A stretch of DNA of 64,000 bases from contig NZ_LMUI01000030.1 of NCBI RefSeq assembly GCF_009765995.1, forward strand, positions 124,001 to 188,000. Direction: 5' to 3'. The notes below the pieces were generated by a model. It was given only the letters and a program-made list of their open reading frames with translations. It was not told where the DNA came from and did no database searches. Shown here piece by piece: positions 10,179 to 64,000 of this stretch. A program made the translations under genes and the position numbers. Origin of the DNA: Methylocapsa sp. S129. Lineage in GTDB: Bacteria > Pseudomonadota > Alphaproteobacteria > Rhizobiales > Beijerinckiaceae. Numbering within the stretch: the first letter of the stretch is position 1; the number at the start of each line of letters is the position of its first letter.

Positions 10179-10556
10179 GCAGATCAGCCGCGCCGAGTCC
10201 AACGGGTGCGGTTTCGCCTATGCTCGAATTTGAACCGACCGAGCCGTCAGTCGAAAAGGCGCTCTGAGTAGGATCGGTAATTGCCGAAGCGGTTATCGAA
10301 CCTCAGCGACTTCTTTTCGAGACGGGCGCCGTAGCGCCGCCACTCGGCAATCGGCCAACTCCGGTCGTTTGAGTGCGGTGGCGAAAAGTCCAACTTAGGT
10401 TGATTCCAGGCCTCTCTGCTGGGAACCAGGCGTCAGATTTTCACCATTGGCGCGATAAGCCTTGGCCGAACCGCCGGTCAGGCGCTGCGATATCCTCCTC
10501 GCGTGGAGGGCTGAAGCCCTCGGGCCTCCGCCCAAAGAGCGTCGGAGCGATATCTA
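10179..10556. other. Gene-free stretch
   Basis: About 380 nt between the LysR gene and the first dispersed repeat. Short open frames exist on both strands, but none has a ribosome site, recognisable motif or consistent codon bias. I see nothing functional in it. Confidence 0.4.
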
Positions 10557-10904
10557 TTTCTGAAAATAAGAATCCATGATAATCTTCTCGTCGCGTTTTC
10601 CAAAGCGATCAACAAAGAGGCCCGCCCTGCACGCTTCCGTCCCTTCCACCCGAAAGTATGACCAAGGCGCGCGGCCGGCCCGGCGGCCTTACGTCCGCCG
10701 CGATGCGAGCGCCGCAAGACGCGGGCAGGCGATGTTTGCGCCCGAAAATTTCGATTTGGAAGCTCAAAGAGGTTTAAGCCCCTGATATCGCGCGTTTCGC
10801 GGAAGCTCGCGCTCTTCCGGGCAGGTGAAAATCAATGACTTAGCGAGGATTTTGACGGACCATTTCTGGTCATTCGGGCGCTCTGGCTATTCCGGCGCTA
10901 TTCC
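10557..10904 (+). repeat. Dispersed non-coding repeat, copy A (direct orientation)
   Basis: This block aligns along its length with the reverse complement of 24892-25195. Matching landmarks occur in the same order: a TTCTGAAAATAAGAAT start, an ATG-AATCTT-TCGTC segment, a GCCCGAAAATTTCGAT core, GATATCGC-CGTTTCGCGG, ATCAA-GACTTAGCG and a GGCTATT-CC end. Identity looks like roughly three quarters, and copy A carries about 45 nt extra in the middle. Short open frames inside are not in the same relative frame in the two copies, which argues against a protein. No transposase gene or clear target-site duplication was seen. Confidence 0.75.
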
Positions 10905-11046
10905 CTCCGCAGCCCTTATCGCCCTCGTGCGCGCCGCCAAACGAAGCGCAAACCTGGTCTCGTCATCAGTCGTGCCGCTGGAGAAAAACGGCACATCTCG
11001 TAAAACACGATTCACCGCAGGACCGTCAGCCCTTCAGGAGACCCCG

Positions 11047-11520
11047 TTGCCGCCCAACGCCGATGTGAATAAGCCCGCCCCGCCGCCCGGCGCCAGGATG
11101 CCGACGGCGCTTCGCGCGGCCGCCAGCAGCCCGAACCGCATTCGCCAGGTCGGCGCGGTCCTGGCGACCCGCGACGGCGCGGAGATTATCGCCTGCAACA
11201 CCTTTCCCGCCGGCGTCAGGGATATCGAAGAACGTCATGCCGGCGACGGCCGCTTCGTCTGGATGGAGCATGCGGAGCGCCACGCCATTTTCGAAGCGGC
11301 GCGGCGCGGCGTGGCGACGGCCGGCGCCCACATCACCTCTACATTTTTTCCTTGCATCGATTGCGCGCGCGCCATCGTCGGGGCGGGCATCGTCTGTCTC
11401 GACACGCCTGCGCCCGCTTTCGACGATCCGATCTGGGGCGCAGCCTTCGAACGATCGCAGATCATCCTGAGGGAAGGCGGCGTTGAGATTCGGGTCGTCG
11501 ACGTCGTCGTTTCGCCATAA
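11047..11520 (+). CDS. Cytidine/deoxycytidylate deaminase family protein
   Basis: A small zinc-dependent deaminase of about 157 residues. The zinc and catalytic signature is complete: HAE within MEHAERHAIFEAARRG, followed by PCIDCARAIV (the P-C-x-x-C motif). An N-terminal VGAVLATRDGAEIIACNTFP strand pair is typical of dCMP-deaminase-like proteins. The open frame extends upstream into the dispersed repeat, but TTG at 11047 has CAGGAG 6 nt upstream and starts just before the domain, so I take that as the start. Alternatives are GTG 11065 and ATG 11098. Exact substrate (nucleotide, pterin or other aminated ring) is not evident. Confidence 0.8.
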   Translation: MPPNADVNKPAPPPGARMPTALRAAASSPNRIRQVGAVLATRDGAEIIACNTFPAGVRDIEERHAGDGRFVWMEHAERHAIFEAARRGVATAGAHITSTFFPCIDCARAIVGAGIVCLDTPAPAFDDPIWGAAFERSQIILREGGVEIRVVDVVVSP

Positions 11521-11631
11521 CCACGCGCGAGCCCGCATCAAGCAATTGAACTTGCCAAAATCCGCCGAAAGGGTCAGCCTCAGCGTCAATCAAGCCCCAA
11601 TCCAAGGGATGCCGGGCGAAGGAGGAAAGCC

Positions 11632-12837
11632 ATGGACAACCATCTGGGCGCGACAGCCGTTGACGCGCGCCAAGCCACGCCGCCTTTCGACAGCGAAAGG
11701 CTCGACAAGCTCCTTGACGAAGCCGGAATCGATGCGCTGGTCATCTCGTCGAAACATAACATCCAATATCTTTTTGGCGGATATCGCTTCTTCTTCTTCG
11801 ATCACTTCGACGCGATCGGCGTCAGCCGCTATCTGCCTCTGCTCGTCTATGTCAAAGGCCGCCCCGATCAATCGACCTATATCGGCCATTCCATGGAATC
11901 CTATGAGCGGGATCTCGGCAAATTCTGGACGCCGAGCGTGCAGGCGGCGCGCGGCAGCCTCGACGCCGCGCAACTCGCGGCGGACCATCTCGGCAAGATT
12001 GGCCCAAAACTGAAGCGCATTGGCGTCGAGCGCGCGTTCCTGCCCGCCGACGCGGACGAACTCTTGCGCCGGGCGCTTTCCCATGCCGAGCTCGTCGAGG
12101 CGCATCTGCCGCTTGAGCGGCTGCGCGCGCGCAAGACGCCCGCGGAGCTCGACCATTTGCGCAAAGCGTCCGACCTGGTCGTCGATTCGATGCTCGCGGT
12201 CATCGCCGGACATGGGCCCGGGGCCTCGAAGCTCGAACTGACCGAAGCGCTTCGTCGCGAAGAAGTGAACCGCGGCCTGACCTTCGAATATTGCCTCATC
12301 ACGGCCGGCGCGAACTGCAATCGGGCCCCATCGGCGCAAACATGGGGCGAGGGCGAAATTCTGTCGCTCGATTCCGGCGGCAATTTCAAAGGCTATATCG
12401 GCGACCTCTGCCGCATGGCGATCCATGGCGAGCCCGATGCCGAACTCAAGGACCTCCTCGCTGAGGTCGACGAAATCCAGATGGCGGCGCGCAAACCCAT
12501 TCGCGCCGGCGCCTTGGGCCGCGATATCTATGCGAGCGCGAATCCGCTGGTGGAAAGGTCGGGGCGCGGCAATTCGCTGGAGTTCGTCGCCCATGGCATG
12601 GGGCTCGTCAGCCATGAGGCGCCGCGGCTCACCGCCAGGGGCCCCGTCCCCTACCCCGCCTATGACGCCGACAGGCCGCTGGAGACCGGTATGGTCATCT
12701 CGATCGAAACGACGCTGCAGCATCCGCGCCGCGGCTTCATCAAACTGGAGGATACGGTCGCGGTGACGGACAATGGTTGGGAAGCTTTCGGCGATCATGG
12801 CCGCGGATGGAACCGCGGCGGCGTTCGCGCTTCGTGA
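11632..12837 (+). CDS. M24-family metallopeptidase (Xaa-Pro aminopeptidase/creatinase fold)
   Basis: A 401-residue protein with an N-terminal creatinase-like domain (about residues 15-150) and a C-terminal pita-bread domain. The metal ligands are visible: Asp in SLDSGGNF and Asp in YIGDLCR, His in VAHGMGLVSHE, Glu in ISIETTL and Glu in IKLEDTVAV. A dinuclear metallohydrolase is therefore expected, cleaving an X-Pro bond or a creatine-like C-N bond. A strong AAGGAGG ribosome site precedes the ATG. It lies 111 nt after the deaminase gene and converges with the DUF2891 gene with 3 nt between stops. Substrate is uncertain because family members differ widely. Confidence 0.88.
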   Translation: MDNHLGATAVDARQATPPFDSERLDKLLDEAGIDALVISSKHNIQYLFGGYRFFFFDHFDAIGVSRYLPLLVYVKGRPDQSTYIGHSMESYERDLGKFWTPSVQAARGSLDAAQLAADHLGKIGPKLKRIGVERAFLPADADELLRRALSHAELVEAHLPLERLRARKTPAELDHLRKASDLVVDSMLAVIAGHGPGASKLELTEALRREEVNRGLTFEYCLITAGANCNRAPSAQTWGEGEILSLDSGGNFKGYIGDLCRMAIHGEPDAELKDLLAEVDEIQMAARKPIRAGALGRDIYASANPLVERSGRGNSLEFVAHGMGLVSHEAPRLTARGPVPYPAYDADRPLETGMVISIETTLQHPRRGFIKLEDTVAVTDNGWEAFGDHGRGWNRGGVRAS

Positions 12838-12840
12838 AGG

Positions 12841-13851
12841 CTACGCTTCCAGAGCCAACACGGCGAAACTCGCAAGCCAATGGGCGCCCATATAGTCGCT
12901 GGCGATATGAGGCAGCGCCGCCTGGAGATGGCGCTCCGCATTCTCTTCAATCGCCGAACGGCGCACGTCGTTCGGCGGCAGCGCCGCCGCGATCGAACGC
13001 CAGCACCAGGCCCGGCTAAGGTTCAGCCCGTCGAGATGCGCGATCTTCCCATCGGTCCGGTCGGCCACGGTCGCCGGCCGAAACAGGGTTGCGGGCTCTC
13101 CTTGCGCGATCCGCGGCAGGAAGCGACCGAACCAGGGCAGAAAGTCGTTCGCGGGCAGGAGCCGGCGCATACATTCGGCCTCGATCAGCGCCGGCGACTG
13201 GAAATCGTCGCCGCTGGGTTCGCCCCAGGCGGGGCAATCGGCATCCTCGCCGTACCAGCGCTTGCCGGTGTCGCGCACCAGCGACGCGAGGGCGGAATCC
13301 TCCGCAACCGCCGCATAGTCGGCCGCCATGCGCAGGCCGAAAGCGGTGTTGAAATGGGCGCCGCCGCGCACAGGATAAGTCGCCAAGGGGAGAAAATCGC
13401 GAAACCGTTGCGCGAAGATTTCCGCCAGCGGCGCCAGCATCCGCGACCAATGTCCCTGGTCGTGGAAGGACAGCTCTTCGGCCAGCTTCAACAGCCACGC
13501 CCAGCCGTAGGGACGCTTGAAACCGCGCGCGGTCGGCGCTGCGAGATAGGCGCATTCGACCGCGACCTTTTCGACGACGAATTGCTCATCGAACAAGGCG
13601 CGAATGTCGCCGGCGACGGGAAGCTCGGGAAAGCGGCGCAGCAGCCGCGCCAGCATCCAATAAGAATGGACGCAGGAATGCCAATCATAGCTGCCGTAGA
13701 ACACGGGATGCAACGCGCTCGGCGTGCGCGCATCATCGGGGCCGGCCAGCACATGGTCGGGCTTGTTGGGATATTCCTGACGCACATGGCCAAGGGCGAC
13801 GCCGGCGAACCATGCGGCCAATTCGGGCGTGAGATTTGATCTTGCCGCCAC
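12841..13851 (-). CDS. DUF2891 family protein
   Basis: A 336-residue protein matching the DUF2891 pattern: an early LHPVFYGSYDWHSCVHSYWMLARLLRRFP segment, a YGWAWLLKLAEEL helix, a later CLEA-like region (ALIEAECMRRLLP) and a C-terminal DYMGAHWLASFAVLALE. The alternating helices and conserved aromatic and histidine residues suggest an alpha/alpha toroid, as in glycan-active enzymes, but no activity is established for the family. The GTG start has AAGGGA 6 nt upstream. It is the last gene of a leftward operon after lactonase and SDR genes (47 nt gap), so a role in carbohydrate metabolism is plausible. It has no signal peptide. Confidence 0.8.
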   Translation of the reverse strand: MAARSNLTPELAAWFAGVALGHVRQEYPNKPDHVLAGPDDARTPSALHPVFYGSYDWHSCVHSYWMLARLLRRFPELPVAGDIRALFDEQFVVEKVAVECAYLAAPTARGFKRPYGWAWLLKLAEELSFHDQGHWSRMLAPLAEIFAQRFRDFLPLATYPVRGGAHFNTAFGLRMAADYAAVAEDSALASLVRDTGKRWYGEDADCPAWGEPSGDDFQSPALIEAECMRRLLPANDFLPWFGRFLPRIAQGEPATLFRPATVADRTDGKIAHLDGLNLSRAWCWRSIAAALPPNDVRRSAIEENAERHLQAALPHIASDYMGAHWLASFAVLALEA

Positions 13852-13898
13852 AGTTTCCCTTCAGGTCGGCGCCATCGCCCCATCCGATCAGCGCGACA

Positions 13899-14687
13899 TT
13901 ATTGCGCAAGGAACCCGCCGTCCACGGGCAGCGTATGGCCGGTGATCATCGCCGCCGCGGGGCTGGCCAGAAAGCAGATCGCCGCGGCGACGTCTTCGGG
14001 TTCGGCCAATCGTTTCAGCGGCGTCATCGCCTCGATCCTCGCCACCATCTCGGGATTTTGAAGAAGCGGCGCGATCAGCGGCGTGCGCACATAGGTCGGC
14101 GCCACGGCATTGACGCGAATATCATGCGGCGCCCATTCGATCGCCAGCGCCCGCGTCATATTGACCACCGCGCCCTTGCTCGTCTGATAAGAAATATTCG
14201 GATAGAGGCCGCCGCCCGAAAGACCCATGATCGAGGCGACATTGACGATAGCGCCGCCCTTGGCCGCCGCGATCATGCAGCGGGCCGCGACGCGGGCGCA
14301 CAGGAACACGCCGGTCATGTTGACCGCGACGACCTTGTCCCAATCGGCAAGCGCGAGTTCGACAGCGGGGCGCCGGATCGCGATGCCGGCATTGTTGACG
14401 AGAATGTCGATGGCCCCCTCGCGCTTCACAATCTCCGCAAAAACGGCCTCGATGGACGCCTCGCTCGCCACGTCGACGGACAGCGCCACAGCCTGTCCCC
14501 CCGCTTCGGCGATTTCGGCGGCCACGACTTGCGACGCGGCTTCATCGCGGTCGGCGACCACGACCTTCGCGCCGGCCGCGGCGAGCGCCAAAGCCGTAGC
14601 GCGACCGATGCCGCCCGCGCCGCCGGTCACCAGGGCGACCGAACGATCGAGGCGAAACAAAGCCTGGGCATTCGCCATAAGCGCCAC
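13899..14687 (-). CDS. SDR-family oxidoreductase (glucose/3-ketoacyl reductase-like)
   Basis: A classical SDR of about 260 residues. The glycine-rich loop is TGGAGGIG, with NNAG at the end of the fourth strand, catalytic Ser in IVNVASIMG, Tyr-Lys in YQTSKGAV, and the C-terminal GHTLPVDGGFLAQ motif. VVVADRDE after the second strand suggests NAD(H) preference. The frame opens at GTG 14687; ATG at 14678 is equally possible. It lies 33 nt after a lactonase gene in the same operon. The pair would suit oxidation of a sugar to its lactone and hydrolysis to the aldonic acid, an inference from context only. Confidence 0.87.
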   Translation of the reverse strand: MALMANAQALFRLDRSVALVTGGAGGIGRATALALAAAGAKVVVADRDEAASQVVAAEIAEAGGQAVALSVDVASEASIEAVFAEIVKREGAIDILVNNAGIAIRRPAVELALADWDKVVAVNMTGVFLCARVAARCMIAAAKGGAIVNVASIMGLSGGGLYPNISYQTSKGAVVNMTRALAIEWAPHDIRVNAVAPTYVRTPLIAPLLQNPEMVARIEAMTPLKRLAEPEDVAAAICFLASPAAAMITGHTLPVDGGFLAQ

Positions 14688-14720
14688 GTTCTTGATTGGG
14701 CGATCAAACCGGCTGCGATC

Positions 14721-15653
14721 TTAGCCCAGCTTCGACCCGTTGGTCGTCAGATAGATCGAATAGAGCGACGTCGTTCCGCAAATGAACAGATGGTTGAGCT
14801 TGTCGCCGCCGAAGGTGACGTTGGCGACCATTTCGGGGATGAGGATCTTGCCGATCAGCGTTCCGTCATGGTCGTAGCAATGGACGCCGTCTCCCGCGCT
14901 CGTCCAGACGCGGCCCTTCCAGTCGACGCGGAAGCCGTCGAAAAGGCCGGCGGTCGATTCGGCGAAGACTTCACCGCCCTTGAGGCTCGCGCCATTTTTG
15001 CCGACCGTGAAACGGCGGATGTGGCGCGGGCCGTTTTCCTTGTGCGTGGCGCCGGTGTCGGCGACATAGAGATATTTCTCGTCGGGCGAAAAGGCCAGGC
15101 CATTCGGCCGCACCATATCGCTGATGACGCGCGCAACCTCGCCGGTTTTGGGATCGATGCGGTAGACGTGGCAGCCGTCGATCTCCTGCGGCGCGCGATC
15201 CCCTTCATAATCGGTGTCGATGCCATAGGCCGGATCGGTGAACCAGATGGAATCGTCGGATTTGACGACGACGTCATTGGGCGAATTGAAGCGCTTGCCG
15301 TCCCACTTGTCGGCGATCACAGCGATCGTGCCATCGACCTCGGTGCGGGTGACGCGACGGGTGAGGTGTTCGCAGGTGACGAGGCGACCCTGGTTGTCGA
15401 CGGTATTGCCGTTCGAATTGTTGGAGCGCTCGCGGAACACCGAGACTTCGCCGCTCGGCTCGACATAGCGCATCATGCGATTGTTCGGAATATCGGACCA
15501 GACGAGATAGCGGCCCGCAGAGAACCAGGCTGGGCCCTCAGCCCAGCGGGCGCCGGTCCACAGGCGTTCGACGCGGACATGGCCGGCGAAACAGGCTTTG
15601 AAACGCGGATCGAGGACCACGATGCCAGTCCCCTCGACTTCGCCATACCACAT
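14721..15653 (-). CDS. SMP-30/gluconolactonase/LRE family protein
   Basis: A six-bladed beta-propeller lactonase of about 310 residues. Metal-site landmarks are present: the EGPAWF glutamate near the N-terminus, NSPNDVVV with its asparagine, and RPNGLAFSPDEKYLYVADTG, where N and D complete the Ca/Zn site. Such enzymes hydrolyse sugar lactones. I chose ATG at 15653 with an AGGGGGA ribosome site; the frame is open upstream but without support. It is the first gene of a leftward three-gene operon with the SDR and DUF2891 genes, consistent with a non-phosphorylative sugar-acid pathway fed by the ABC importer at 18.3-22.2 kb. Confidence 0.88.
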   Translation of the reverse strand: MWYGEVEGTGIVVLDPRFKACFAGHVRVERLWTGARWAEGPAWFSAGRYLVWSDIPNNRMMRYVEPSGEVSVFRERSNNSNGNTVDNQGRLVTCEHLTRRVTRTEVDGTIAVIADKWDGKRFNSPNDVVVKSDDSIWFTDPAYGIDTDYEGDRAPQEIDGCHVYRIDPKTGEVARVISDMVRPNGLAFSPDEKYLYVADTGATHKENGPRHIRRFTVGKNGASLKGGEVFAESTAGLFDGFRVDWKGRVWTSAGDGVHCYDHDGTLIGKILIPEMVANVTFGGDKLNHLFICGTTSLYSIYLTTNGSKLG

Positions 15654-49244: not shown

Positions 49245-49260
49245 TGGCACATCCCTTGCT
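49245..49260 (+). promoter_or_regulatory. Sigma-54 (-24/-12) promoter of the PotABCD-like operon
   Basis: The sequence TGGCACATCCCTTGCT matches the TGGCAC-N5-TTGCW consensus at every conserved position, with correct GG-to-GC spacing. Transcription would start near 49271, giving a leader of about 26 nt before the ATG at 49297. Sigma-54 dependence implies an enhancer-binding activator such as NtrC, so nitrogen control is likely. Confidence 0.8.
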
Positions 49261-53478: not shown

Positions 53479-54210
53479 GTGAAGCTCCTCGTCGTTAATC
53501 CCAATACGAGCGCCGGCATGACCGCGCGGATCGGCGAGGCCGCGCGCGCCGCCGCAAGCGCCGGCACGCAGATCGCCGCCGTCAATCCGTCAAGCGGCCC
53601 GGCCTCGATCGAAGGTTATTTCGACGAAGCTTTCGCCGTGCCCGGCATGCTGGAGGAAATCATCAAGGGCGAGACGGCTGGAATCGACGCCTTTGTCATC
53701 GCCTGCTTCGACGACACCGGGCTTGAGGCGGCGCGCTGCTGCGCGAGCGGCCCCGTCATCGGCATTGGCGAGGCGGCGTTTCATCTGGCGACGCTGATCG
53801 CGCATCGCTTCAGCGTGGTGACCACCTTGTCGCGCTCGATCGCGCCGATCGAAGCCAACCTCGTGAAATATGGCCTCGATCGTCGCTGCGCCCGCGTGCG
53901 CGCCTGCGACGTGCCGGTGCTCGCGCTCGACGACGCGGCTTCGGGCGCCCGCGCGAAATTGTCGGCGGAGATTGGGCGCGCAAAGGCGCAGGACGGCGCC
54001 GACGCGATCGTGCTGGGCTGCGCCGGCATGGCCGACCTTGCGGCGTCGCTGGCGCGCGAACATGGGCTGCCGGTGATCGATGGCGTCGCGGCGGCGGTCA
54101 AGCTCGCCGAGGCGCTGGTCGCGCTCGGGCACGCCACGTCGAAGAGCGGGCCCTACGCCAGGCCAATCCCGAAGGCGTTCGCTGGAATGTTTTCCGCGCT
54201 CTCCGCCTGA
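53479..54210 (+). CDS. Hydantoin racemase (Asp/Glu/hydantoin racemase family)
   Basis: A 243-residue racemase. Two catalytic cysteines are present at Cys76 (IACFDDTG) and Cys181 (LGCAGM), the same positions I recall for the Sinorhizobium meliloti hydantoin racemase. The LLVVNPNTSAGMT start and the AAVNPSSGPASIEGYFDE loop also fit hydantoin and allantoin racemases. These interconvert D and L 5-substituted hydantoins or allantoin. The GTG start abuts the PotC-like stop, so import and racemisation are co-expressed. No hydantoinase is encoded in the window. Confidence 0.87.
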   Translation: MKLLVVNPNTSAGMTARIGEAARAAASAGTQIAAVNPSSGPASIEGYFDEAFAVPGMLEEIIKGETAGIDAFVIACFDDTGLEAARCCASGPVIGIGEAAFHLATLIAHRFSVVTTLSRSIAPIEANLVKYGLDRRCARVRACDVPVLALDDAASGARAKLSAEIGRAKAQDGADAIVLGCAGMADLAASLAREHGLPVIDGVAAAVKLAEALVALGHATSKSGPYARPIPKAFAGMFSALSA

Positions 54211-54296
54211 TTTGCGCCGCCAAAGGCGGTCGCAACGCGGGCGGTTTGAATTTCAAGACAGCTCCGCTAACCTGACGAAATCAAGGAGACGCGCGA

Positions 54297-55205
54297 ATGT
54301 CGCAGGCAAAGGTCAATGGCGTCGATATCGAGTTCGAAATCTTCGGACGCGACAGCGATCCCGCGATTCTGCTCATCATGGGCTATGCCGCGCAATTGAC
54401 CCTGTGGCCCGAGCCGATGTGCCGCGGCCTGGCGGACAAAGGATTTCGCGTCATCCGCTTCGACAATCGCGATGTCGGCAAGTCCACGCATCTGATGGAG
54501 GAACCGGCGCCCGATTCGGCTGTCTTGATGAACAAGTTGATGACCGGCCAACCCTTTGAGATTCCCTATTCGTTGGACGACATGGCCGCGGACGCTGTAG
54601 GCCTGCTTGATGCGATCGGGATTGAGCAGGCGCATATCGTCGGCGCCTCGATGGGCGGCATGATCGCTCAACTCGTGGCGGTCAACCATCCTTCGAGGGC
54701 CCGCAGCCTAATTTCCATCATGTCGACGACAGGTCGGCGCGACCTACCGCCGGCCAAGCCCGAAGTGATGGCGGCGCTCGTCACGCCGCCCGCCAGCACG
54801 CGCCGCGACGATCTCATCGAATCCGCGGTCCGCACGTGGCGCGTCATCGGCAGCCCCGGCTATCCGCGCACTGACACGGAAATCCGCAAGCTCGCCGAGG
54901 AGGAGGTCGATCGGACTCCTTACGAACCGACAGGTTTTGCCCGTCAAATGGCGGCGATTATCGCCGCGCCGCCTCGCAACGAGATTCTGAAAGGCGTGCG
55001 CGCGCCGACGCTGGTCATCCACGGCGCCGACGACCCGCTGCTGCCGGTAGCCGGCGGCGAGGACACCGCGGCGAGCATTCCGGGCGCCGAACTCATCGTC
55101 ATCCCTGGCGCCGGCCATGAGTTCCCGGATTCGCTCATATCGACTTATGTCCGGCACATCGGCGATTTCGTCTCGAAAGTCGAGGCGCGCGTGAAGACTT
55201 CATAG
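54297..55205 (+). CDS. Alpha/beta hydrolase fold protein
   Basis: A 302-residue hydrolase. The catalytic triad is visible: nucleophile Ser in VGASMGGMIAQ, acid Asp in IHGADDPLLP and His in PGAGHEFPD. LIMGYAAQLTLWPEPMC forms the oxyanion region. The sequence resembles esterases and 3-oxoadipate enol-lactonase-like proteins; a role like RutD (aminoacrylate hydrolysis) is possible given the adjacent RidA gene but not shown. AAGGAG lies 9 nt before the ATG. It is 86 nt after the racemase gene. Confidence 0.85.
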   Translation: MSQAKVNGVDIEFEIFGRDSDPAILLIMGYAAQLTLWPEPMCRGLADKGFRVIRFDNRDVGKSTHLMEEPAPDSAVLMNKLMTGQPFEIPYSLDDMAADAVGLLDAIGIEQAHIVGASMGGMIAQLVAVNHPSRARSLISIMSTTGRRDLPPAKPEVMAALVTPPASTRRDDLIESAVRTWRVIGSPGYPRTDTEIRKLAEEEVDRTPYEPTGFARQMAAIIAAPPRNEILKGVRAPTLVIHGADDPLLPVAGGEDTAASIPGAELIVIPGAGHEFPDSLISTYVRHIGDFVSKVEARVKTS

Positions 55206-55230
55206 GCGCTGACGAACTCGGGAGCGGACG

Positions 55231-55614
55231 GTGCGATTTCACATGATTCCCGGCGGACCCAAACCCGTCGCGCCGTTCAGCCATGCCGTCGAGAGCGACG
55301 GCTTCATATTCGTCACCGGGCAGATGCCGGATACGCCTGCCGCTCCGGGTATCCTGCCCGAGGGCGTCGCCGCGCAGACGCGCAACGTCATGGCCAATCT
55401 TTCGACAGTGCTGGCCGGCCTTGGCCTCGCGCTCGAACATGTCGTGATGGCGCGCGTCTATCTCACGCGTTTCAAGGACGATTACGTTGAGATGAACGAG
55501 GTTTATCGGACCTTCTTCGCCGAAGGCCGTCTGCCGGCGCGCACCTGCGTCGGCGTGACCGGCCTTGCTTATGACGCACTGATTGAGATCGATCTGATCG
55601 CGCGCCGTCCTTGA
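55231..55614 (+). CDS. RidA/YjgF-family enamine/imine deaminase
   Basis: A 127-residue RidA homologue. The GFIFVTGQMPDTP strand, the helix with RNVMANLSTVLAGLGLALEHVV and the late LPARTCVGVTGLAYDALIEIDLIA segment, with an Arg that normally binds the substrate carboxylate, match the family. RidA proteins hydrolyse reactive 2-aminoacrylate-type intermediates; in the Rut pathway a paralogue handles peroxyaminoacrylate or aminoacrylate. The GTG start has GGGAG upstream. It follows the hydrolase by 25 nt and converges with the PCMT-like gene with 4 nt between stops. Confidence 0.88.
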   Translation: MRFHMIPGGPKPVAPFSHAVESDGFIFVTGQMPDTPAAPGILPEGVAAQTRNVMANLSTVLAGLGLALEHVVMARVYLTRFKDDYVEMNEVYRTFFAEGRLPARTCVGVTGLAYDALIEIDLIARRP

Positions 55615-56537: not shown

Positions 56538-57437
56538 TCACCCTCCCGGTATGCTCCCCTTCGGGAGCGCCCGCACATGGTCCGCTATCGCCCCCGTCGT
56601 CGTCAGCCAGATGCGCTGCCGATGCGCGGCGATATGCGTCAGCGCGCGGCGCAGGTGGCGCAGGCGATGGGGCTGGCCGACAATATAGGGATGCAACGCG
56701 ACGCCCATGACGAGCGGCTCATGCGCGCTCTGCGCCAGCATTTCGTCGAAATGATCGACGATCATTTGCGCGAAAGCCGCGCCCTCGATCTTGCGCGCGA
56801 CTATCATCGGGATGTCGTTGATCTCCTGCGGATAGGGCACGGCGAGGATCGGCCCATGCGTCGTGCGCATAAAGATTGGCTGATCGTCCATGCACCAGTC
56901 GAGCAAATAATCGTAGCCCGCTTCCGCCAGCAGATCGGGCGTGGCGCGGCTTTGCGAAATCCACGGGCCGAGCCAGCCCCTGGGCTTGGCGCCCTCCTCG
57001 CGCGCGATGATCGCGGTCGCCTGCGCGATTAGCGCCGCCTCTTCGGCCTCGCTTAAAATCCCTTGTCTTTCGCTGTTGGTGCGCCCGTGCCCGACAAACT
57101 CGTCGCCGCGCGCGCGGAAGGCTTCCGCAAGGCCCGGCGCATGCGCGTAAATATCCGAATTGATCAGCACCGAGGCGGGCGCCTGCAAGGCGTCAAGCAA
57201 GTCGATCAGCCGCCAGGCGCCGACGCGATTGCCATAGTCGCGCCAGGCATAGTTCAGCACGTCGGGTTGCGGACCACCCGGCGCGAGCTCGGCGCCTAAC
57301 CCTTCGCCGAACGCAAAACATTCAAGATTGATCGCGATATAGACGGCGAGGCCGGCGCCATTCGGCCAGAGATAGCGTGGGCGTCCGCGGATCGGCGAAT
57401 AATCGTAGCGGCCATGGTTCGCGGGGGCGCGCGTCAT
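56538..57437 (-). CDS. Polysaccharide deacetylase family protein (PuuE/allantoinase-like)
   Basis: A 299-residue NodB-fold hydrolase. The closing segments WLGPWISQSRATPDLLAEAGYDYLLDWCMDDQPIFM and VMGVALHPYIVGQPHRLRHL resemble the PuuE-type subgroup, cofactor-independent allantoinases and related amidases, more than chitin deacetylases. The classic TFDD motif is replaced by INLECF, and GHGRTNSE carries the conserved histidine. The start overlaps the atzF stop as ATGA, so the two are co-translated. This supports action on a ureide, an amide or an s-triazine breakdown product, an inference from context. Confidence 0.82.
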   Translation of the reverse strand: MTRAPANHGRYDYSPIRGRPRYLWPNGAGLAVYIAINLECFAFGEGLGAELAPGGPQPDVLNYAWRDYGNRVGAWRLIDLLDALQAPASVLINSDIYAHAPGLAEAFRARGDEFVGHGRTNSERQGILSEAEEAALIAQATAIIAREEGAKPRGWLGPWISQSRATPDLLAEAGYDYLLDWCMDDQPIFMRTTHGPILAVPYPQEINDIPMIVARKIEGAAFAQMIVDHFDEMLAQSAHEPLVMGVALHPYIVGQPHRLRHLRRALTHIAAHRQRIWLTTTGAIADHVRALPKGSIPGG

Positions 57438-59236
57438 AGCGAGCCGATATAGGCGCGCCAGCCGCCGAACTGCGTGACGTCTTTGGCCCCCTTCACCGCC
57501 TCGGCTTCGACAAGGAAGCCTTTGGCGCTGGTTCCATCGGTAAAGCTCAGCGTGCCGATGCCGAGCGGGCTTGGAATGGCCGCGACGAAAGCCCCGAACG
57601 CCTTGGCGTCGAGCGCCCAGATTTCGGCCTTTATCGAGACGCCTTCTTCCGGCGTCACCCGCAGCAGGCCGGGCTTGGCGGGGACCGCGCCCGGCAAAGC
57701 GTAGAGGCGATAGCTCGGGACGGTTTCAACTTCGCGTAGAAGAATTCCGCCCAGCTCCACCAGCTCGCGGTTGAGCGGCAGACCTGACAGATGCGCACCG
57801 ACCGCCGCGATTTCGATCCGCCCCGGTGGCGCTTGCATGGGCGCTGACGCCGGCGCTTCAACGGCGAGGCCGGTCGCGCCCATCGTCACGCCCGAATGCG
57901 CCTGAACTTGCGCGGCGACGCCCGCCAGAAAACCGTCCGCGCCCGCGGGGCCGATCAGAGTCAGGCTGGAGGGCAATCCATCGGCGCGCATGCCGGAGGG
58001 CGCCGCGATCGCGGAGAGATCGAGCAGGTTGACGAAATTCGTATAGGTTCCGAGATTCGAATTAAGCGCGATCGGATCAGCCTCGACTTCAGCGATTGTG
58101 TAGGGGCGGGGCATAGTGGGCACAGCCATGATCTCGAACGCGGCCCAAACGGCGGCGCTCTGACGGCGCAGGGCGGCGAGTTTATACGTCGCCTGGAAGG
58201 CGGCGACCGCGTCATGTTTGCGGGCGCCTTCGATGATCGCGCGCGTCACGGGGTGAAGAGCGCCCGGATTGGTCTCGATCAGCGGCATAGTCGCGGCGTA
58301 ACGCTCGGCGACCCAGGGGCCCTCATAGAGCAGCCGCGCCACGGCGTAGAACGGCTCCATGTCGAATTCGACGATTTTCGCCCCTAGCGAAACGAGCGCG
58401 GCGATGTCGCGCTCGAAGGCGGCCTGCGCCTCGCCATCGTCGAAGAATTTAAGTTGCGAAGCTCTCGGGACGCCGACGCGAAAATGCTTCGGCGCCGCTG
58501 ACAGCGCTGGCGCGGCGAAGGCGCGCGACCACGGGTCGGCCGCGTCAAAACCCGCCGCGATCTGATAGACAAGAAAGGCGTCGGCGACATCAAGGGCGAA
58601 GATCGAGACGGTATCGAGCGTGCGGCAGGCGGGCGCCACGCCGGTCATCGACAGGGCGCCAAGCGTCGGTTTGAGTCCGACAACGCCATTGAGCGCGGCG
58701 GGCACCCTGCCGGAGCCAGCCGTATCCGTGCCGAGCGAAAAGGGCGTGAGCCCGGCGCCGACCGCCGTTGCGGAGCCGGAGCTGGAGCCGCCCGGAATAA
58801 GATCGGCCCGCAGCGCATTGCGCGGAACGCCATAAGGCGAACGCACGCCGACGAGGCCGGTGGCGAATTGATCGAGATTGGTCTTGCCGATGACGATCGC
58901 CCCTGCCCGCTCGAGCCGCTCGACAACGAAGGCCGAGCGCTCGGGCTGATATTCGAAGGCCGGACAAGCGGCTGTGGTCGGCAGGCCCGCGACATCGATA
59001 TTGTCCTTGACGACGAAGGGAACGCCAAAGAGAGGCTTGGCCTCAGGGCCCGCCGCCTGAATGGAGACAGCCAACGCCAGCGCTTCGGCCTTCGGGCGCA
59101 ACGCGATGAACAGGGCGGGATCGTCATGCGCCGCGATGCGGGCGTAGGTCTCCTCTATCGTGTCGGTCAGCTTTTTCCCGGCGGCATGGGCCGCAAGAAC
59201 CGATTGAATCGTAAACCCCATGCCGTCGAACTCCAT
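57434..59236 (-). CDS. atzF: Allophanate hydrolase (AtzF type)
   Basis: A 600-residue amidase-signature protein. The catalytic triad is Lys77 (FVVKDNIDV), cis-Ser151 (PGGSSSGSA) and Ser175 (TDTAGSGR), matching AtzF Lys91, Ser165 and Ser189 at a constant offset of 14. The GLPTTAACPAFEY and TNLDQFATGLVGVRSPYG segments are diagnostic of allophanate hydrolases. A C-terminal domain (about residues 470-600) is present, as in full-length enzymes. It converts allophanate to ammonia and CO2, the last step of cyanuric acid and biuret breakdown. Start may be ATG 59236 or ATG 59221 (GGAG 9 nt upstream). Confidence 0.93.
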   Translation of the reverse strand: MEFDGMGFTIQSVLAAHAAGKKLTDTIEETYARIAAHDDPALFIALRPKAEALALAVSIQAAGPEAKPLFGVPFVVKDNIDVAGLPTTAACPAFEYQPERSAFVVERLERAGAIVIGKTNLDQFATGLVGVRSPYGVPRNALRADLIPGGSSSGSATAVGAGLTPFSLGTDTAGSGRVPAALNGVVGLKPTLGALSMTGVAPACRTLDTVSIFALDVADAFLVYQIAAGFDAADPWSRAFAAPALSAAPKHFRVGVPRASQLKFFDDGEAQAAFERDIAALVSLGAKIVEFDMEPFYAVARLLYEGPWVAERYAATMPLIETNPGALHPVTRAIIEGARKHDAVAAFQATYKLAALRRQSAAVWAAFEIMAVPTMPRPYTIAEVEADPIALNSNLGTYTNFVNLLDLSAIAAPSGMRADGLPSSLTLIGPAGADGFLAGVAAQVQAHSGVTMGATGLAVEAPASAPMQAPPGRIEIAAVGAHLSGLPLNRELVELGGILLREVETVPSYRLYALPGAVPAKPGLLRVTPEEGVSIKAEIWALDAKAFGAFVAAIPSPLGIGTLSFTDGTSAKGFLVEAEAVKGAKDVTQFGGWRAYIGSL

Positions 59237-59653
59237 GTGTAAATAAGAAAAGACGCCTCTTTCGGGCCTCTATGCAAATCTCAGGCGATTGCGCGCCCTC
59301 CCGCTGATGCGAAGGCCGACTTCTCCTGCAAGTGAGAAGGGCGCGCGCGTCCCGCTCGCTATTCCGGCAAGGCGCCGCGATCTTGAGCAGTCTCTGACGT
59401 ACGCCTCCGCTCCCAGGCCCAATGTTACGGGTTTGCTCGCTCAGGAACCGCTTGTCTATCGCCCGGCTAAGGTCGTTGGGACCCATCGAAACGGGCCGTC
59501 GAAGCGTTTCACCCGCCATCGTCGGGAACACGCCTCAACGTTCGGCCAGCATGCATTCATCGAGACGGGGACCTAACAGGAATTCACCAGACGGCGCAGA
59601 CCGGCAATTTCTTCGCCAAGTCGTTCCATTTGCGCCGGCGTTGCGATTCCAGA

Positions 59654-59670
59654 TGCACGATCTTTGAGCA
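59654..59670. promoter_or_regulatory. NtrC-like upstream activator site
   Basis: TGCACGATCTTTGAGCA matches 13 of 17 positions of the enteric NtrC consensus TGCACYAWWWTGGTGCA, including both TGCA-type ends. Its centre is about 130 nt upstream of the predicted sigma-54 start. The half-site TGCACGAT recurs at 59714-59721, exactly 60 bp downstream. Confidence 0.5.
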
Positions 59671-59698
59671 TCCAAGGCACGCAAAATCAGCACGCAAC

Positions 59699-59746
59699 CC
59701 TAGATTATAAGCATGCACGATAGACTAATTGTATGCAATATCTAGG
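59699..59746. promoter_or_regulatory. Imperfect 48-bp dyad containing TTGTATGCAA
   Basis: Arms CCTAGAT (59699-59705) and ATCTAGG (59740-59746) bound a dyad. Inner arms also pair imperfectly (AAGCATGCA on the left with TTGTATGCAA at 59729-59738). The decamer TTGTATGCAA differs by one base from the TTGTATACAA palindrome at 49098, next to the GntR gene. It lies 23 nt upstream of the sigma-54 promoter, a position suitable for repression. Confidence 0.5.
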
Positions 59747-59768
59747 CTATGAATACATAAAGTGATTT

Positions 59769-59784
59769 TGGCATGCTCCTTGCT
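59769..59784 (+). promoter_or_regulatory. Sigma-54 (-24/-12) promoter of the BMP importer/biuH operon
   Basis: TGGCATGCTCCTTGCT matches TGGCACG-N4-TTGCW except for one T in the -24 box; the GG and GC doublets and spacing are exact. Transcription would start near 59795, giving a leader of about 48 nt before the ATG at 59843. Nitrogen-limitation control through NtrC is inferred. Confidence 0.8.
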
Positions 59785-59842
59785 TTTCCCTCAACGCAGG
59801 CACGACATTTGCTCGCGCCTCCTATCGATAGAGGATCTCCCC

Positions 59843-60958
59843 ATGGCACTAGCGAACCTTTCTCGTCGCGCGTTTCTGCAAACCACCGCCGCCGGAACGG
59901 CGGGCCTGGCGTTGAGCCTGGGGGGCGCGACGCGCGCTTTCGCAGCCGATCTTACCGTCGGCATTGTCTATGTCGGCGCACGCGACGACTTCGGTTGGAA
60001 CCAGGCGCATGCGGTCGCCATTCAGGCGTTGAAACTGGTGCCCGGCGTCAAGGTCGTCGAGGAGGAGAACGTTCCTGAGACCGACGCCTGCGCCAAGACA
60101 ATGGAATCGATGATCAACCTCGATGGCGCCGGGCTGATCCTGGCGACGTCCTTTGGCTATTACACGCCCTTCGTCGTCGACATGGCCAAGAAATACCCCA
60201 AAGTTGAATTCCGCCATGCCGCGCCCTTGTGGGACAAGGACAAGGACCCGAAGAACGCGGGCAGCTATTTCGGCTATCTCAACCAGGGCCATTATGTCGA
60301 CGGCGTCGCCGCCGGACTGTCGACCAAATCGAACAAGCTTGGCTTCGTCGCCGCCAAACCGATCGCCAGCGTGCTCAGCAACATCAATTCGTTCATGCTG
60401 GGCGCGCGCAAGGTCAATCCGAACGCAGTGGTGCAGGTGATCTTCACCGGCGACTGGTCGATGCCGGTGCGTGAGGCGGAAGCGGCGAGCGCGTTGGTCG
60501 ATGCGGGCTGCGACGTCATCACCTGCCATGTCGACTCGCCCAAGGTCGTGATCGAGACGGCCGAAAAACGCGGCGTGAAAAGCTGCGGCCATAACGCCAG
60601 TCAGGCGCCGCTTGCGCCCAAAGGCTTCATCACCGGCGCCGAATACAAATGGGAGACCATCTACAAGGGCTACGCCGCCGACCTTGCCGCCGGTAAAACG
60701 CTGTCGAACTTCACCGCCGGCGGCATCGAGCTCGATATGGTGCAGAACACGCCGTTCGGCGCCGGCGCGACCGACGCGGCCAAGACCGCCGCGACGGCGG
60801 CGATCGCCGATATGAAGGCGAAGAAGCCGATCTATGTCGGTCCGCTGAAAGACAATAAGACCGGCAAGATCGTCATCGACAAGACCTATGGCAATCTCGA
60901 CCCCTACCTCGATCAGATGAACTATCTGCTCGAAGGCGTTGTCGGCTCGATCACTTAA
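59843..60958 (+). CDS. BMP-family ABC transporter substrate-binding protein, Tat-exported
   Basis: A 371-residue basic-membrane-protein/PnrA-type binding protein. The leader has a twin-arginine motif (LSRRAFLQTTAAGTAG) and a cleavage near AFA-AD. GIVYVGARDDFGWNQAHAVAIQALK and the LILATSFGYYTPFVVDMAKKYP strand are typical of BMP proteins that bind nucleosides and other purine- or ring-like compounds. GAGGA lies 8 nt before the ATG. It is followed 12 nt later by two permeases. Linked to biuret and triazine-ring enzymes, its ligand is probably cyanuric acid, barbiturate or a related ring. Confidence 0.9.
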   Translation: MALANLSRRAFLQTTAAGTAGLALSLGGATRAFAADLTVGIVYVGARDDFGWNQAHAVAIQALKLVPGVKVVEEENVPETDACAKTMESMINLDGAGLILATSFGYYTPFVVDMAKKYPKVEFRHAAPLWDKDKDPKNAGSYFGYLNQGHYVDGVAAGLSTKSNKLGFVAAKPIASVLSNINSFMLGARKVNPNAVVQVIFTGDWSMPVREAEAASALVDAGCDVITCHVDSPKVVIETAEKRGVKSCGHNASQAPLAPKGFITGAEYKWETIYKGYAADLAAGKTLSNFTAGGIELDMVQNTPFGAGATDAAKTAATAAIADMKAKKPIYVGPLKDNKTGKIVIDKTYGNLDPYLDQMNYLLEGVVGSIT

Positions 60959-60970
60959 AGCGAGGGCGCG

Positions 60971-62104
60971 ATGAGCACCGGGGCGCCGACGGCGAGCGAA
61001 GTTCCGGCGGTGGCGATGAAGCCGGCCGCCGGATCGGATTTCGCGTTGCGGTTGCGCGCCAATTCCGAATATGTGGCGATCCCGGCTTTTGCGCTTCTGA
61101 TGGCGGCGCTGTTGTTCGCGCTGTTCCTGCTGGCGATCGGCAAGTCGCCGATCGACTTTGTCGCTTACGTCTGGCGCGGCGGATTCGGCACGGCGTTCTC
61201 CTTCCAGAACACGCTGCAGCGCTCCTCGCCGCTGATCCTGACGGCGCTCGCCGTCGCGATACCCGCCCGCATCGGCCTGATCATGATCGGCGCCGAGGGC
61301 GCGTTGGTGCTGGGAGGTTTCGCGGCGGCGGCGATCGCGGTGCCGATGATCGGCGTCGCGCCGCCGTTCCTAACGCTCGCCATCATGGTCGTGGCCGCGA
61401 TCGCGGTGGGAGGACTGTGGGTCGGAATCGCCGGTTATTTGCGCTATGCGCGCGGCGTCAACGAGACCATTGCGTCACTCTTGCTGACCTATATCGGCAT
61501 CGCAATTATGAACTTTTTTGTCGAGGGCGTCCTGCGCGACGCCAGCAACCCCAACAAGCCTTCGACCAAGCCGCTCGGCGACGCCTATATGGTCGGCAAA
61601 ATACCTGGCACGGATGTGCATTGGGGCTTTGCCGTCGGCGTCCTGCTCGCCATCGCGCTTTACATCCTGATGACGCGCACGACCTTCGGTTTCGCGGCGC
61701 GCGTTACGGGTGGAAATTTTCGCGCCGCGCTCGCGCAAGGCCTGCCCGTCGGCAAACTGATCGTAAGCTGCGCGATGATAGCGGGCGGCTGCGCGGGGCT
61801 GGCGGGCTTCTTCGAAGTGGCGGCGATCCAGGGCCGCGCCAACGCCTCGCTGGCGGCGGGCTATGGCTTCACCGGCATTCTCGTGTCGTTTCTCGCGCGC
61901 CATAATCCGCTCGTCATCGTTCCCGTCGCGATATTGTTCGGCGGCCTCGTCGCGTCCGGCGGCCTGATCCAGCGCCGCATGGATCTGCCCGACGCGACCG
62001 TTCTGGTGCTGCAGGGCCTCATCTTCGTCGTCCTGCTGACCTCGGAGACGCTCTACGGCCGCTTTGCTTTCTTCAAGCCGATCAAGGGAAGAGACCGGAC
62101 ATGA
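60971..62104 (+). CDS. BMP-type ABC transporter permease 1 (NupP-like)
   Basis: A 377-residue permease with about nine hydrophobic helices. FQNTLQRSSPLILTALAVAIPARIGLIMIGAEGALVLGG is the signature of BPD_transp_2 permeases linked to BMP proteins, and YLRYARGVNETIASLLLTYIGIAIMNFFVEG is a conserved cytoplasmic and membrane segment. GAGGG precedes the ATG. The stop overlaps the next permease start (ATGA). No matching ATPase gene is found between the binding protein and permeases, where it usually occurs; it may lie beyond the window. Confidence 0.9.
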   Translation: MSTGAPTASEVPAVAMKPAAGSDFALRLRANSEYVAIPAFALLMAALLFALFLLAIGKSPIDFVAYVWRGGFGTAFSFQNTLQRSSPLILTALAVAIPARIGLIMIGAEGALVLGGFAAAAIAVPMIGVAPPFLTLAIMVVAAIAVGGLWVGIAGYLRYARGVNETIASLLLTYIGIAIMNFFVEGVLRDASNPNKPSTKPLGDAYMVGKIPGTDVHWGFAVGVLLAIALYILMTRTTFGFAARVTGGNFRAALAQGLPVGKLIVSCAMIAGGCAGLAGFFEVAAIQGRANASLAAGYGFTGILVSFLARHNPLVIVPVAILFGGLVASGGLIQRRMDLPDATVLVLQGLIFVVLLTSETLYGRFAFFKPIKGRDRT

Positions 62105-63018
62105 ATGATGGGCTCGCGACCGTCCTCATCGCCATGCTGGGAGGCGCAATCCGCGTCTCGACCCCTTTCATGTTCGTCGCGCTTGGCGAATGCCTGACGG
62201 AGAAATCGGGGCGGGTCAATCTCGGCCTTGAGGGCACATTGGTGCTGGGCGCGATGGTCGCCTATGCCGCCTCCTATCACACCGGCTCGCCCTGGGCCGG
62301 CGTTTTTGCAGCAGGCGTCGCCGGCTCCGCGCTGGGCGCCATGCACGGATCGATCTGCAAATTGCCGAAGGTCAACGATGTCGCGGTCGGCATTGCGATG
62401 ATGTTGTTTGGCACCGGCGTCGCGTTCTTCTTCGGCAAGCCCTACATCCAGCCGACCGCGCCGCGCCTGCCCTCCTTGCCGCTCGGCGGCTGGAGCGACA
62501 GTTCGAGCCTCAAAAGCGCGCTCGACGTCAATCCTTTGTTTTTCGTCGGCATCGTCATTGCGATCGTCATGGCCTGGGCTTTGCGCAATACGCGCTGGGG
62601 CTTGGTGGTGCGCACCGTCGGCGATAGCGCGGCGGCGGCGCGCGCGATGGGCATTTCGGTCGATCTCGTGCGCTTTCTGACCACAACGGTCGGCGGCTTT
62701 CTGGCCGGCGTCGGCGGCGCCTTTCTCTCGCTGTCCTATCCCGGCTCCTGGAACCAGGGCCTTTCGTCGGGGCAAGGGCTGATGGCGGTGGCTTTGGTTA
62801 TTTTCGCACGCTGGAATCCGATGCGCTGCGTGATCGCCGCTTTGTTGTTTGGCGGCGCCGGCGCGATCGGGCCGGCGCTGCAATCGGTGGGGATTACCCA
62901 AGGCTATTATTTCTTCAACGCCGCCCCCTACATCCTCACGCTCGTCATCATGATCGCGACATCGAGCGCCAAACGCTCGGCGCGCGACATGCCGGGCGAA
63001 CTCTCGATGGCGCGCTAG
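62101..63018 (+). CDS. BMP-type ABC transporter permease 2 (NupQ-like)
   Basis: A 305-residue permease with eight or so hydrophobic helices. [39 protein letters not shown]-type sequence at the N-terminus and [28 protein letters not shown] near residue 190 match the second BPD_transp_2 permease of nucleoside-type importers. It is translationally coupled to permease 1 by ATGA and followed 38 nt later by biuH. The pore would be a heterodimer of the two. Confidence 0.9.
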
Positions 63019-63056
63019 GGACGCGCGTTTCTTCTCTGACGCGGACGCCTAGCATC

Positions 63057-63734
63057 ATGCCGACCATCGCCGCCGACCCCTATCCCTGGCCCTATAACGG
63101 CGACTGGCGCCCCCAGAACACCGCCGTCATCGTCATCGACATGCAGACCGATTTCTGCGGCAAGGGCGGTTATGTCGATTCCATGGGCTATGATCTCGCG
63201 CTGACCAGAGCGCCGATCAAGCCGATCGCGGGCCTGCTCGCCGCTATGCGCGCCAAGGGCTACCATATCTTCCACACGCGCGAGGGTCACCGGCCCGACC
63301 TTGCCGACCTGCCGCCCAACAAGCGCTGGCGCTCGCAGCGCATCGGCGCCGGCATCGGCGATTCCGGCCCTTGCGGGCGCATCCTCATCCGCGGCGAGCC
63401 CGGCTGGAACATCATCGACGAACTCGCGCCCGAGCCCGGCGAACCGATCATTGACAAGCCTGGCAAGGGCTCGTTCTGCGCGACCGATCTCGAATTGATC
63501 ATGCGCACGCGCGGCATCGACAATCTCGTGCTGACCGGCATCACGACCGATGTCTGCGTGCACACCACCATGCGCGAGGCCAATGATCGCGGCTTCGAAT
63601 GCCTGCTGTTGGAGGATTGCTGCGCCGCGACCGACCACGGCAATCATCTCGCCGCGATCAAAATGGTCAAGATGCAGGGCGGCGTGTTCGGCGCCGTCAG
63701 CGATTCCGCGACCTTCGTCGCGGGCCTGCCATGA
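63057..63734 (+). CDS. biuH: Biuret hydrolase (isochorismatase-like cysteine hydrolase)
   Basis: A 225-residue cysteine hydrolase. Catalytic triad Asp28 (VIDMQTDF), Lys134 (IIDKPGKG) and Cys167 (TTDVCVHTT) aligns with Asp36, Lys142 and Cys175 of Rhizobium leguminosarum BiuH at a constant offset of 8. The DPYPWPYNG start, [28 protein letters not shown] and [11 protein letters not shown] stretches are characteristic of biuret hydrolase and distinguish it from RutB. It converts biuret to allophanate and ammonia. Its stop overlaps the next gene's start by ATGA, placing it in one operon with the ring-opening enzyme. Confidence 0.93.
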
Positions 63735-64000
63735 CGCGCCAAGCCTTCGTCCATCGCATCGCGACGCGGGCGCCCGACGATATCCAGCCGCTCGAGGCGA
63801 TGCTCGTCTCGGGGGAAATCAGGGCGCCGGGCCTCGTCGCGATCCTCGGCAAGACGGAAGGCAACGGTTGCGTCAATGATTTCACGCGAGGATTTGCGAG
63901 CCGCGCACTGAAAGACCTGCTCAAGCGCCATATGCCGGCAGCCGAGGCCGAAGCCGTCTGCATCGTCATGTCGGGCGGCACGGAAGGCGCGCTCTCGCCT
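63731..64000 (+). CDS. Ring-opening amidohydrolase (cyanuric acid hydrolase/barbiturase), N-terminal part
   Basis: Ninety codons are visible before the window ends. [22 protein letters not shown] and [13 protein letters not shown] are diagnostic of the AtzD/TrzD/barbiturase family. Lys41 and Ser81 correspond to the first Lys-Ser catalytic pair (Lys42 and Ser85 in AtzD). The family opens cyanuric acid or barbituric acid rings. Discriminating residues lie in the missing C-terminal two thirds, but biuH and atzF in the same locus favour cyanuric acid, whose carboxybiuret product decarboxylates to biuret. The start overlaps the biuH stop. Confidence 0.92.

Follow-up and report, generated by a model that had tools for sequence, protein, structure and literature searches.

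The locus considered here lies at the right end of a 64,000-nucleotide stretch (the window) of the 6.87-Mb genome of Methylocapsa sp. S129 (contig NZ_LMUI01000030.1, positions 124,001 to 188,000; C38:124001-188000 in our numbering) and combines predicted genes for the breakdown of biuret, triuret, and cyanuric acid with a BMP-type importer. Several described systems resemble it. The atzDGEHF and atzRSTUVW genes of Pseudomonas sp. ADP (PMC6834077, PMC6219798) share with it atzD, atzG, atzE, atzH, atzF, and a BMP-type importer whose binding protein, AtzT, is encoded beside atzDGEHF and has been solved with ligands; sigma-54-dependent promoters occur there too (PMC6834077). According to PMC6219798, that strain is without biuret use, and the window's locus adds biuH and trtA; the same paper also describes atzGEH clusters, in which atzD or atzF is seldom present. 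Rhizobium leguminosarum bv. viciae (now johnstonii) 3841, the strain of the characterized BiuH (PMC5806882), carries on pRL10 (our locus L090; PMC5806882, PMC7948467) the gene order BMP-permease-permease-biuH-atzD-ATPase-trtA, which is that of the window, with identities of 53% (BMP protein), 61 and 66% (permeases), 81% (BiuH), 56% (AtzD), 61% (ATPase), and 69% (TrtA) and, as in the window, a sigma-54 site, in L090 with 0 mismatches. L090 differs in having no atzG, atzE, or atzH and no atzF within 21 kb (in agreement with PMC5806882), whereas the window's locus has all four, and in a BMP pocket of a Tyr/Gln class rather than the Trp/Ser class of the window. In ammonia oxidizers and comammox bacteria, a bmpA-nupABC importer adjoins biuH and trtA, as here, in a set that includes atzF, and the importer has been proposed to serve triuret/biuret use (PMC12625717); those genomes have no atzD, unlike the window, and the accessible part of that report holds no pocket or promoter analysis. 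The triuret pathway of Herbaspirillum sp. BH-1 shares TrtA, BiuH, and AtzF and meets the cyanuric acid route at carboxybiuret, which is decarboxylated there by TrtB (PMC7948467), whereas the window's locus encodes AtzEG and AtzH.

Set beside these systems, the locus represents a variation on one already known and not a new kind. We consider it likely to be a sigma-54-driven nitrogen-scavenging operon whose importer serves, most probably, biuret and/or triuret and in which AtzD is optional. The literature already describes BMP importers encoded next to enzymes of this sort (AtzT, and biuH-trtA-bmpA in nitrifiers), and the statement in a preliminary description of the window, made from the sequence without database searches, that an importer of this type was not known to be characterized has been partly overtaken by the AtzT structures (PMC6834077) and the nitrifier report (PMC12625717). 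Our literature search, which covered few subscription papers, returned no report of a ligand test for a biuH-linked BMP protein or of a sigma-54 promoter there. As far as we searched, the new elements are the hybrid of biuH, trtA, and atzGEH, the link of the importer to biuH over atzD, a pocket signature with two classes, and the sigma-54 promoter. The features are as follows, in window numbering (the window's right edge cuts the locus, and about 8.6 kb more lies beyond 64000, to position 72644).

57434..59236, minus strand: atzF, allophanate hydrolase with a C-terminal AH_C domain (PF01425, 303 bits; PF21986, 151.6 bits; TIGR02713, 771.5 bits, cut-off 511)
59654..59670, plus strand: NtrC-like palindrome with 1 mismatch (pattern match, weak evidence)
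59769..59784, plus strand: sigma-54 (-24/-12) promoter-like site TGGCATGCTCCTTGCT, 74 nt upstream of the BMP start
59843..60958, plus strand: BMP-family solute-binding protein with a Tat-like RR start
60971..62104, plus strand: ABC permease 1 (BPD_transp_2; PF02653, 106.5 bits)
62101..63018, plus strand: ABC permease 2 (BPD_transp_2; PF02653, 126.8 bits)
63057..63734, plus strand: biuH, biuret hydrolase (NF050097, 416.7 bits, cut-off 370)
63731..64000, plus strand: first 90 codons of atzD, putative cyanuric acid hydrolase, which ends at 64840 (L006:1731-2840)
64837-66381, plus strand: BMP-ABC ATPase with two ABC domains
66383-67063, plus strand: trtA, predicted triuret hydrolase
67150-67338, plus strand: atzG (PF13318, 44 bits, cut-off 24)
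67335-68738, plus strand: atzE (TIGR02715, 699.9 bits, cut-off 425.75)
68787-69572, plus strand: 5-formyltetrahydrofolate (FTHF) cyclo-ligase-like gene (L006:6787-7572; PF01812, 64.8 bits)
69569-69970, plus strand: atzH (PF11533, 186.3 bits, cut-off 27)
70218-71642, plus strand: amidohydrolase (Amidohydro_1; L006:8218-9642; profile match)
71664-72644, plus strand: isopenicillin N synthase (IPNS)-like 2-oxoglutarate (2OG)-Fe(II) oxygenase (profile match)

Divergent from the rest, atzF lies upstream of the BMP gene, and all remaining genes, in the order listed, are on the plus strand. In the scheme that we favor, the BMP protein, presumably exported by the Tat pathway, would work with the two permeases and the two-domain ATPase to take up small ureides, of which biuret and/or triuret are the likeliest. 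Triuret (through TrtA) and cyanuric acid (through AtzD) would both be converted to 1-carboxybiuret, the product of both enzymes in PMC7948467. This intermediate either loses CO2 (half-life, about 20 min), leaving biuret, or is deaminated by AtzEG (PMC7948467). On the first path BiuH would deaminate the biuret to allophanate; on the second, AtzH would decarboxylate the product of AtzEG, again to allophanate, from which AtzF would release ammonia and CO2. These reactions, known in the literature for members of the same families, would presumably hold in this organism, and one locus could then encode both published fates of carboxybiuret.

The preliminary description had the importer dedicated to cyanuric acid, a view weakened by two censuses of gene neighborhoods, in which genes were labeled by phmmer and presence was called at bit scores of our own choosing (e.g., BMP, 250; biuH, 300; trtA, 200; atzD, 200; atzE, 300). 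The first sampled 397 genomes from the order and 398 from the phylum, of which 91 and 26, the own genome in both, were over the biuH cut-off; 90 of the 91 order genomes (own genome excluded) and 10 of the 26 phylum genomes, those not already included, gave 100 places, and 95 once five loci shorter than 16 kb (L204, L206, L208, L218, and L257) were left out. Among these 95 biuH loci, the importer is present in 91, trtA in 74, atzF in 54, atzE in 36, and atzD in 19 (94 have the importer when all 100 are counted). The second census took 80 named loci, those that hold the closest relatives of atzD among the matches listed, 63 of which remained after the exclusion of 17 shorter than 19 kb; here, the importer accompanies atzD in 43 of the 44 loci with biuH and in none of the 19 without it. 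Because the importer follows biuH and not atzD, we tie it to the biuret/triuret part of the operon, and biuret or triuret becomes the likelier ligand; on these neighborhoods, its ligands are probably biuret and triuret, and atzD is best described as an optional insertion in a biuret/triuret operon rather than the gene that the importer arose to serve. Chance does not explain the linkage, since the 11 BMP genes over the cut-off in the own genome give an arithmetic expectation of only about 3% that any one gene has a BMP gene 10 kb away or nearer. If this assignment is right, the importer beside biuH in the 91 loci moves from "s-triazine" or "nucleoside" to biuret/triuret.

Gene order bears on the same question. 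The proposal of one operon with the BMP protein and two permeases agrees with the shared strand and the short or overlapping junctions of these genes, and the order BMP-PERM1-PERM2-BIUH-ATZD-ABC-TRTA recurs in 51 loci, with the identical order minus ATZD in another 51 (some species counted twice). The form with atzD, often with atzF in addition, occurs in many Rhizobiales, including R. leguminosarum 3841, for which the preliminary description had suggested just such a comparison; a second form, that of the window, has atzE and atzH in addition, frequently together with the FTHF-like gene (e.g., L036, L043, L046, L051, L063, and L103). That the BMP importer takes up cyanuric acid for AtzD, with the biuret and triuret enzymes as downstream helpers, is nevertheless an arrangement with some points in its favor: atzD stands inside the operon, directly after biuH in 58 of the 67 biuH loci that have it, and AtzT, the solved relative, adjoins atzDGEHF in Pseudomonas sp. 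ADP. We regard it as unlikely, as 76 of the 95 biuH loci are without atzD and 72 of those 76 retain the importer, the long atzD loci without biuH (among the matches listed) all lack it, and the binding of cyanuric acid by AtzT is itself weak (dissociation constant, 340 uM; PMC6834077). An importer tied to atzD is thus disfavored by both censuses.

With its Bmp binding protein, two BPD_transp_2 permeases, and two-domain ATPase, the importer belongs to the BMP family (PnrA-like). The pocket of the window's binding protein is formed by Trp52, Ser103, Phe104, Ser176, Asn180, Trp205, His229, and Asp231, and where AtzT keeps Glu165, Asn218, and Asn220, there are Ser176, His229, and Asp231; because these guanine-contacting residues are replaced, we do not assign the protein to the AtzT type of purine/2-hydroxyatrazine binder. 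The biuH-linked BMP proteins form one clade of 138 sequences (support, 0.72; two L099 fragments are left out of the pocket counts), in which the position of Glu165 is occupied by Gln in 81 and by Ser, Thr, Ile, Val, or Leu in 57. A general purine or nucleoside importer, with biuH in its neighborhood for historical reasons, is a less probable reading still: the fold and sequence are nearest to purine-binding AtzT and to 3s99, and the linked proteins preserve the ring-stacking aromatic pair and the Ser-Phe, but the linkage to biuH is near constant, the clade is separate, and the guanine-contacting Glu is lost in 138 of 138 linked proteins. The biuret/triuret assignment is made testable by this pocket signature together with the conserved sigma-54 promoter.

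The small-residue pocket class (the Trp52/Ser176 type) is a single clade of 57 (support, 1.0), so that its association with gene content is not a set of independent events: the 2OG dioxygenase is present in 20 and the FTHF-like gene in 27 of 42 loci of the Trp/Ser class, versus 0 of 49 for each in the Gln class. Speculatively, and we would not lean on it, the importer comes in two ligand classes, with the Trp52/Ser176 class taking a different or larger ligand that is preprocessed by the 2OG dioxygenase and the FTHF-cyclo-ligase-like protein, and the whole locus acts as one nitrogen-starvation salvage of products of nonenzymatic uric acid oxidation (triuret, cyanuric acid, biuret, and perhaps oxalurate). 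Uric acid oxidation is a source of both triuret and cyanuric acid (PMC7948467), and were this salvage to operate, cyanuric acid hydrolase would have had a natural supply of substrate before there were herbicides; the locus as a whole bears on the role of that enzyme before the industrial production of its substrate. The FTHF-cyclo-ligase-family gene recurs in 27 of the 95 biuH loci, and NCBIfam gave no match for it at an E value of 1e-20.

Nitrogen scavenging, already proposed in the preliminary description, gains support from a predicted promoter of the Pseudomonas sp. ADP type, recognized by sequence match and conserved across loci. In 92 of 137 loci, the 250 nt ahead of the inferred BMP start (placed by a length rule) contain a sigma-54 match that deviates at no more than 1 position, 46 to 159 nt from that start; among control windows, drawn at random from these loci and for the most part coding, 0.6% contain one. 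Across the 64-kb window, the pattern is not enriched (15 matches at up to 2 mismatches versus 25 expected), and the signal is therefore informative only through its conservation across loci. Control by NtrC may be added to this picture: NtrC-like palindromes with 1 mismatch number 3 in the window, against 1.41 expected, and a palindrome with at most 2 mismatches is found in 51 of 131 loci, against 10.9% of control windows, a modest enrichment.

Several observations weigh against the explanation preferred above. The importer is present in all 19 atzD-bearing biuH loci, so that it may take up cyanuric acid too, and is absent from 4 of the 95 biuH loci; the loci are interrelated, some species having been counted twice (as a named and an unnamed record), so that the counts are not independent events; and of the 10 further BMP paralogues in the own genome, 8 likewise lack Glu165 (these are distant, and the alignment there is uncertain), so that its loss is not peculiar to the biuH-linked clade. 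In addition, AtzH scores above the cut-off of the NCBIfam HpxZ model, "oxalurate catabolism protein" (188.1 bits versus 135), and among solved chains it matches 2rcd best (144.6 bits), with AtzH itself behind (122.9 bits). These AtzH scores bear on whether atzG-atzE-atzH is an oxalurate (Hpx-type) module within the operon in place of a second carboxybiuret route, for which it also speaks that atzGEH clusters occur more often without atzD or atzF (PMC6219798). We find this doubtful: atzGEH is located together with two makers of carboxybiuret, atzE is commoner in biuH loci with atzD (16 of 19) than in the others (20 of 76; counts include kin), and AtzE scores above the cut-offs of the AtzE models. 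Its best solved match, at 515 bits, is 6c62, which we take to be AtzE of Pseudomonas ADP. The atzG, atzE, and atzH genes of the putative carboxybiuret route are adjacent and all match their family models, and as they follow in the same locus, BiuH stands beside AtzEG and does not replace AtzE/AtzG, contrary to what had been proposed from the window alone.

The enzyme families named in the preliminary description agree with model scores and catalytic residues throughout. AtzF has Lys77, Ser175, and Ser151, the last being the first Ser of a GGSSS motif (residues 149-153), and it matches the family model and the amidase and C-terminal domains (TIGR02713, PF01425, and PF21986). BiuH keeps the triad Asp28, Lys134, and Cys167, scores 422.5 bits to the solved BiuH 6azo, in addition to passing its family model, and is 80.6% identical to the copy of Rhizobium 3841. 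TrtA is an isochorismatase-family protein with the triad Asp30, Lys135, and Cys168; its closest solved chain is 6xix (327.4 bits versus 219 for the BiuH 6xjm), presumably TrtA of Herbaspirillum (the entry's own label is "Cysteine hydrolase"), and it falls under the BiuH model cut-off (247.3 versus 370 bits), so that trtA is a gene for a predicted triuret hydrolase.

The preliminary description, which saw only the N terminus of the ring opener with Lys41 and Ser81, left its class to be settled beyond position 64000. The full-length protein of 369 amino acids, whose start at 63731 overlaps the biuH stop, contains three Ser-Lys dyads (K41/S81, K158/S228, and K296/S344), of which K158/S228 equals Lys156/Ser226, and Arg190, which equals Arg188. 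By sequence, it is of the cyanuric acid hydrolase type and not of the barbiturase type: it exceeds the cut-off of the cyanuric acid amidohydrolase model NF052395 (539.9 bits versus 360), and its match to the cyanuric acid hydrolase of A. caulinodans reaches 436.7 bits versus 239.3 and 177 for the two barbiturase-type chains. A barbiturase in a locus for pyrimidine breakdown, to which membership in the same Pfam family (PF09663) would lend itself, is extremely improbable given these scores and an Arg where barbiturases have Gln (PMC4051656), and barbiturase identity was rejected on Arg190 and the bit scores. In a tree of 126 family members, AtzD belongs to a subclade of 23, every one beside biuH (support, 0.93); because biuH-linked copies occur elsewhere in the tree too (e.g., L050, L093, L097, L215, and L287), atzD has joined or moved more than once. 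Of 385 genomes from the class, 22 carry genes of this family.

A second atzD-family gene of the genome lies at L004 (C30:177000-196999), in 9750-15570 on the minus strand, together with an amidase and its own BMP-type importer, which belongs to a different clade, and adjoins a BhcA-like aminotransferase and an IclR-family regulator. Its product retains Arg190 and scores 470.8 bits with the cyanuric acid hydrolase model, above the cut-off, but its separation from barbiturase is less clear (310.9 bits to 5hwe versus 384 to 6bum and 282.6 to 4nq3). The L004 importer clade also adjoins atzD in L117 and L125 and is, from its neighborhoods, a better candidate for a ring importer than that of the main locus. 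Asn occupies the Arg190 position in 9 of the 126 sequences, and a nine-member group in the tree (e.g., L128, L131, and L133, with L134) is sister to this second copy. A TRZ/ATZ-like amidohydrolase, kin of the downstream L006:8218-9642, adjoins atzD in ten loci without biuH (L037, L038, L047-L049, L058, L070, L071, L109, and L122) and may make the ring opener's substrate.

Clustering of unlabeled open reading frames around biuH in a hunt for TrtB gave mostly out-of-frame ones, plus a small gene, cupin-looking by eye, in 13 loci (L268:12394-12918 and 12 other biuH loci), on the same strand just 3' of the biuH-trtA part; it is a possible candidate for TrtB. A further BiuH-like isochorismatase of the own genome (C5:190083-190727, minus strand) scores 301.7 bits, under the cut-off of 370; another of the BMP genes, at C5:207898, is some 17 kb away. 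In the window, a polysaccharide-deacetylase-like protein is encoded at 56538-57437 on the minus strand, overlapping atzF by 4 bases; its best NCBIfam match, allantoinase PuuE, reaches 117.1 bits, far under the cut-off of 424.6. Genes of the Asp/Glu/hydantoin racemase, alpha/beta hydrolase, and RidA families stand in a row at 53479-55614 (plus strand), possibly another cluster for a small nitrogen compound, and the sequence at 49245-49260 (plus strand) fits the sigma-54 pattern TGGCACN5TTGCW without a mismatch.

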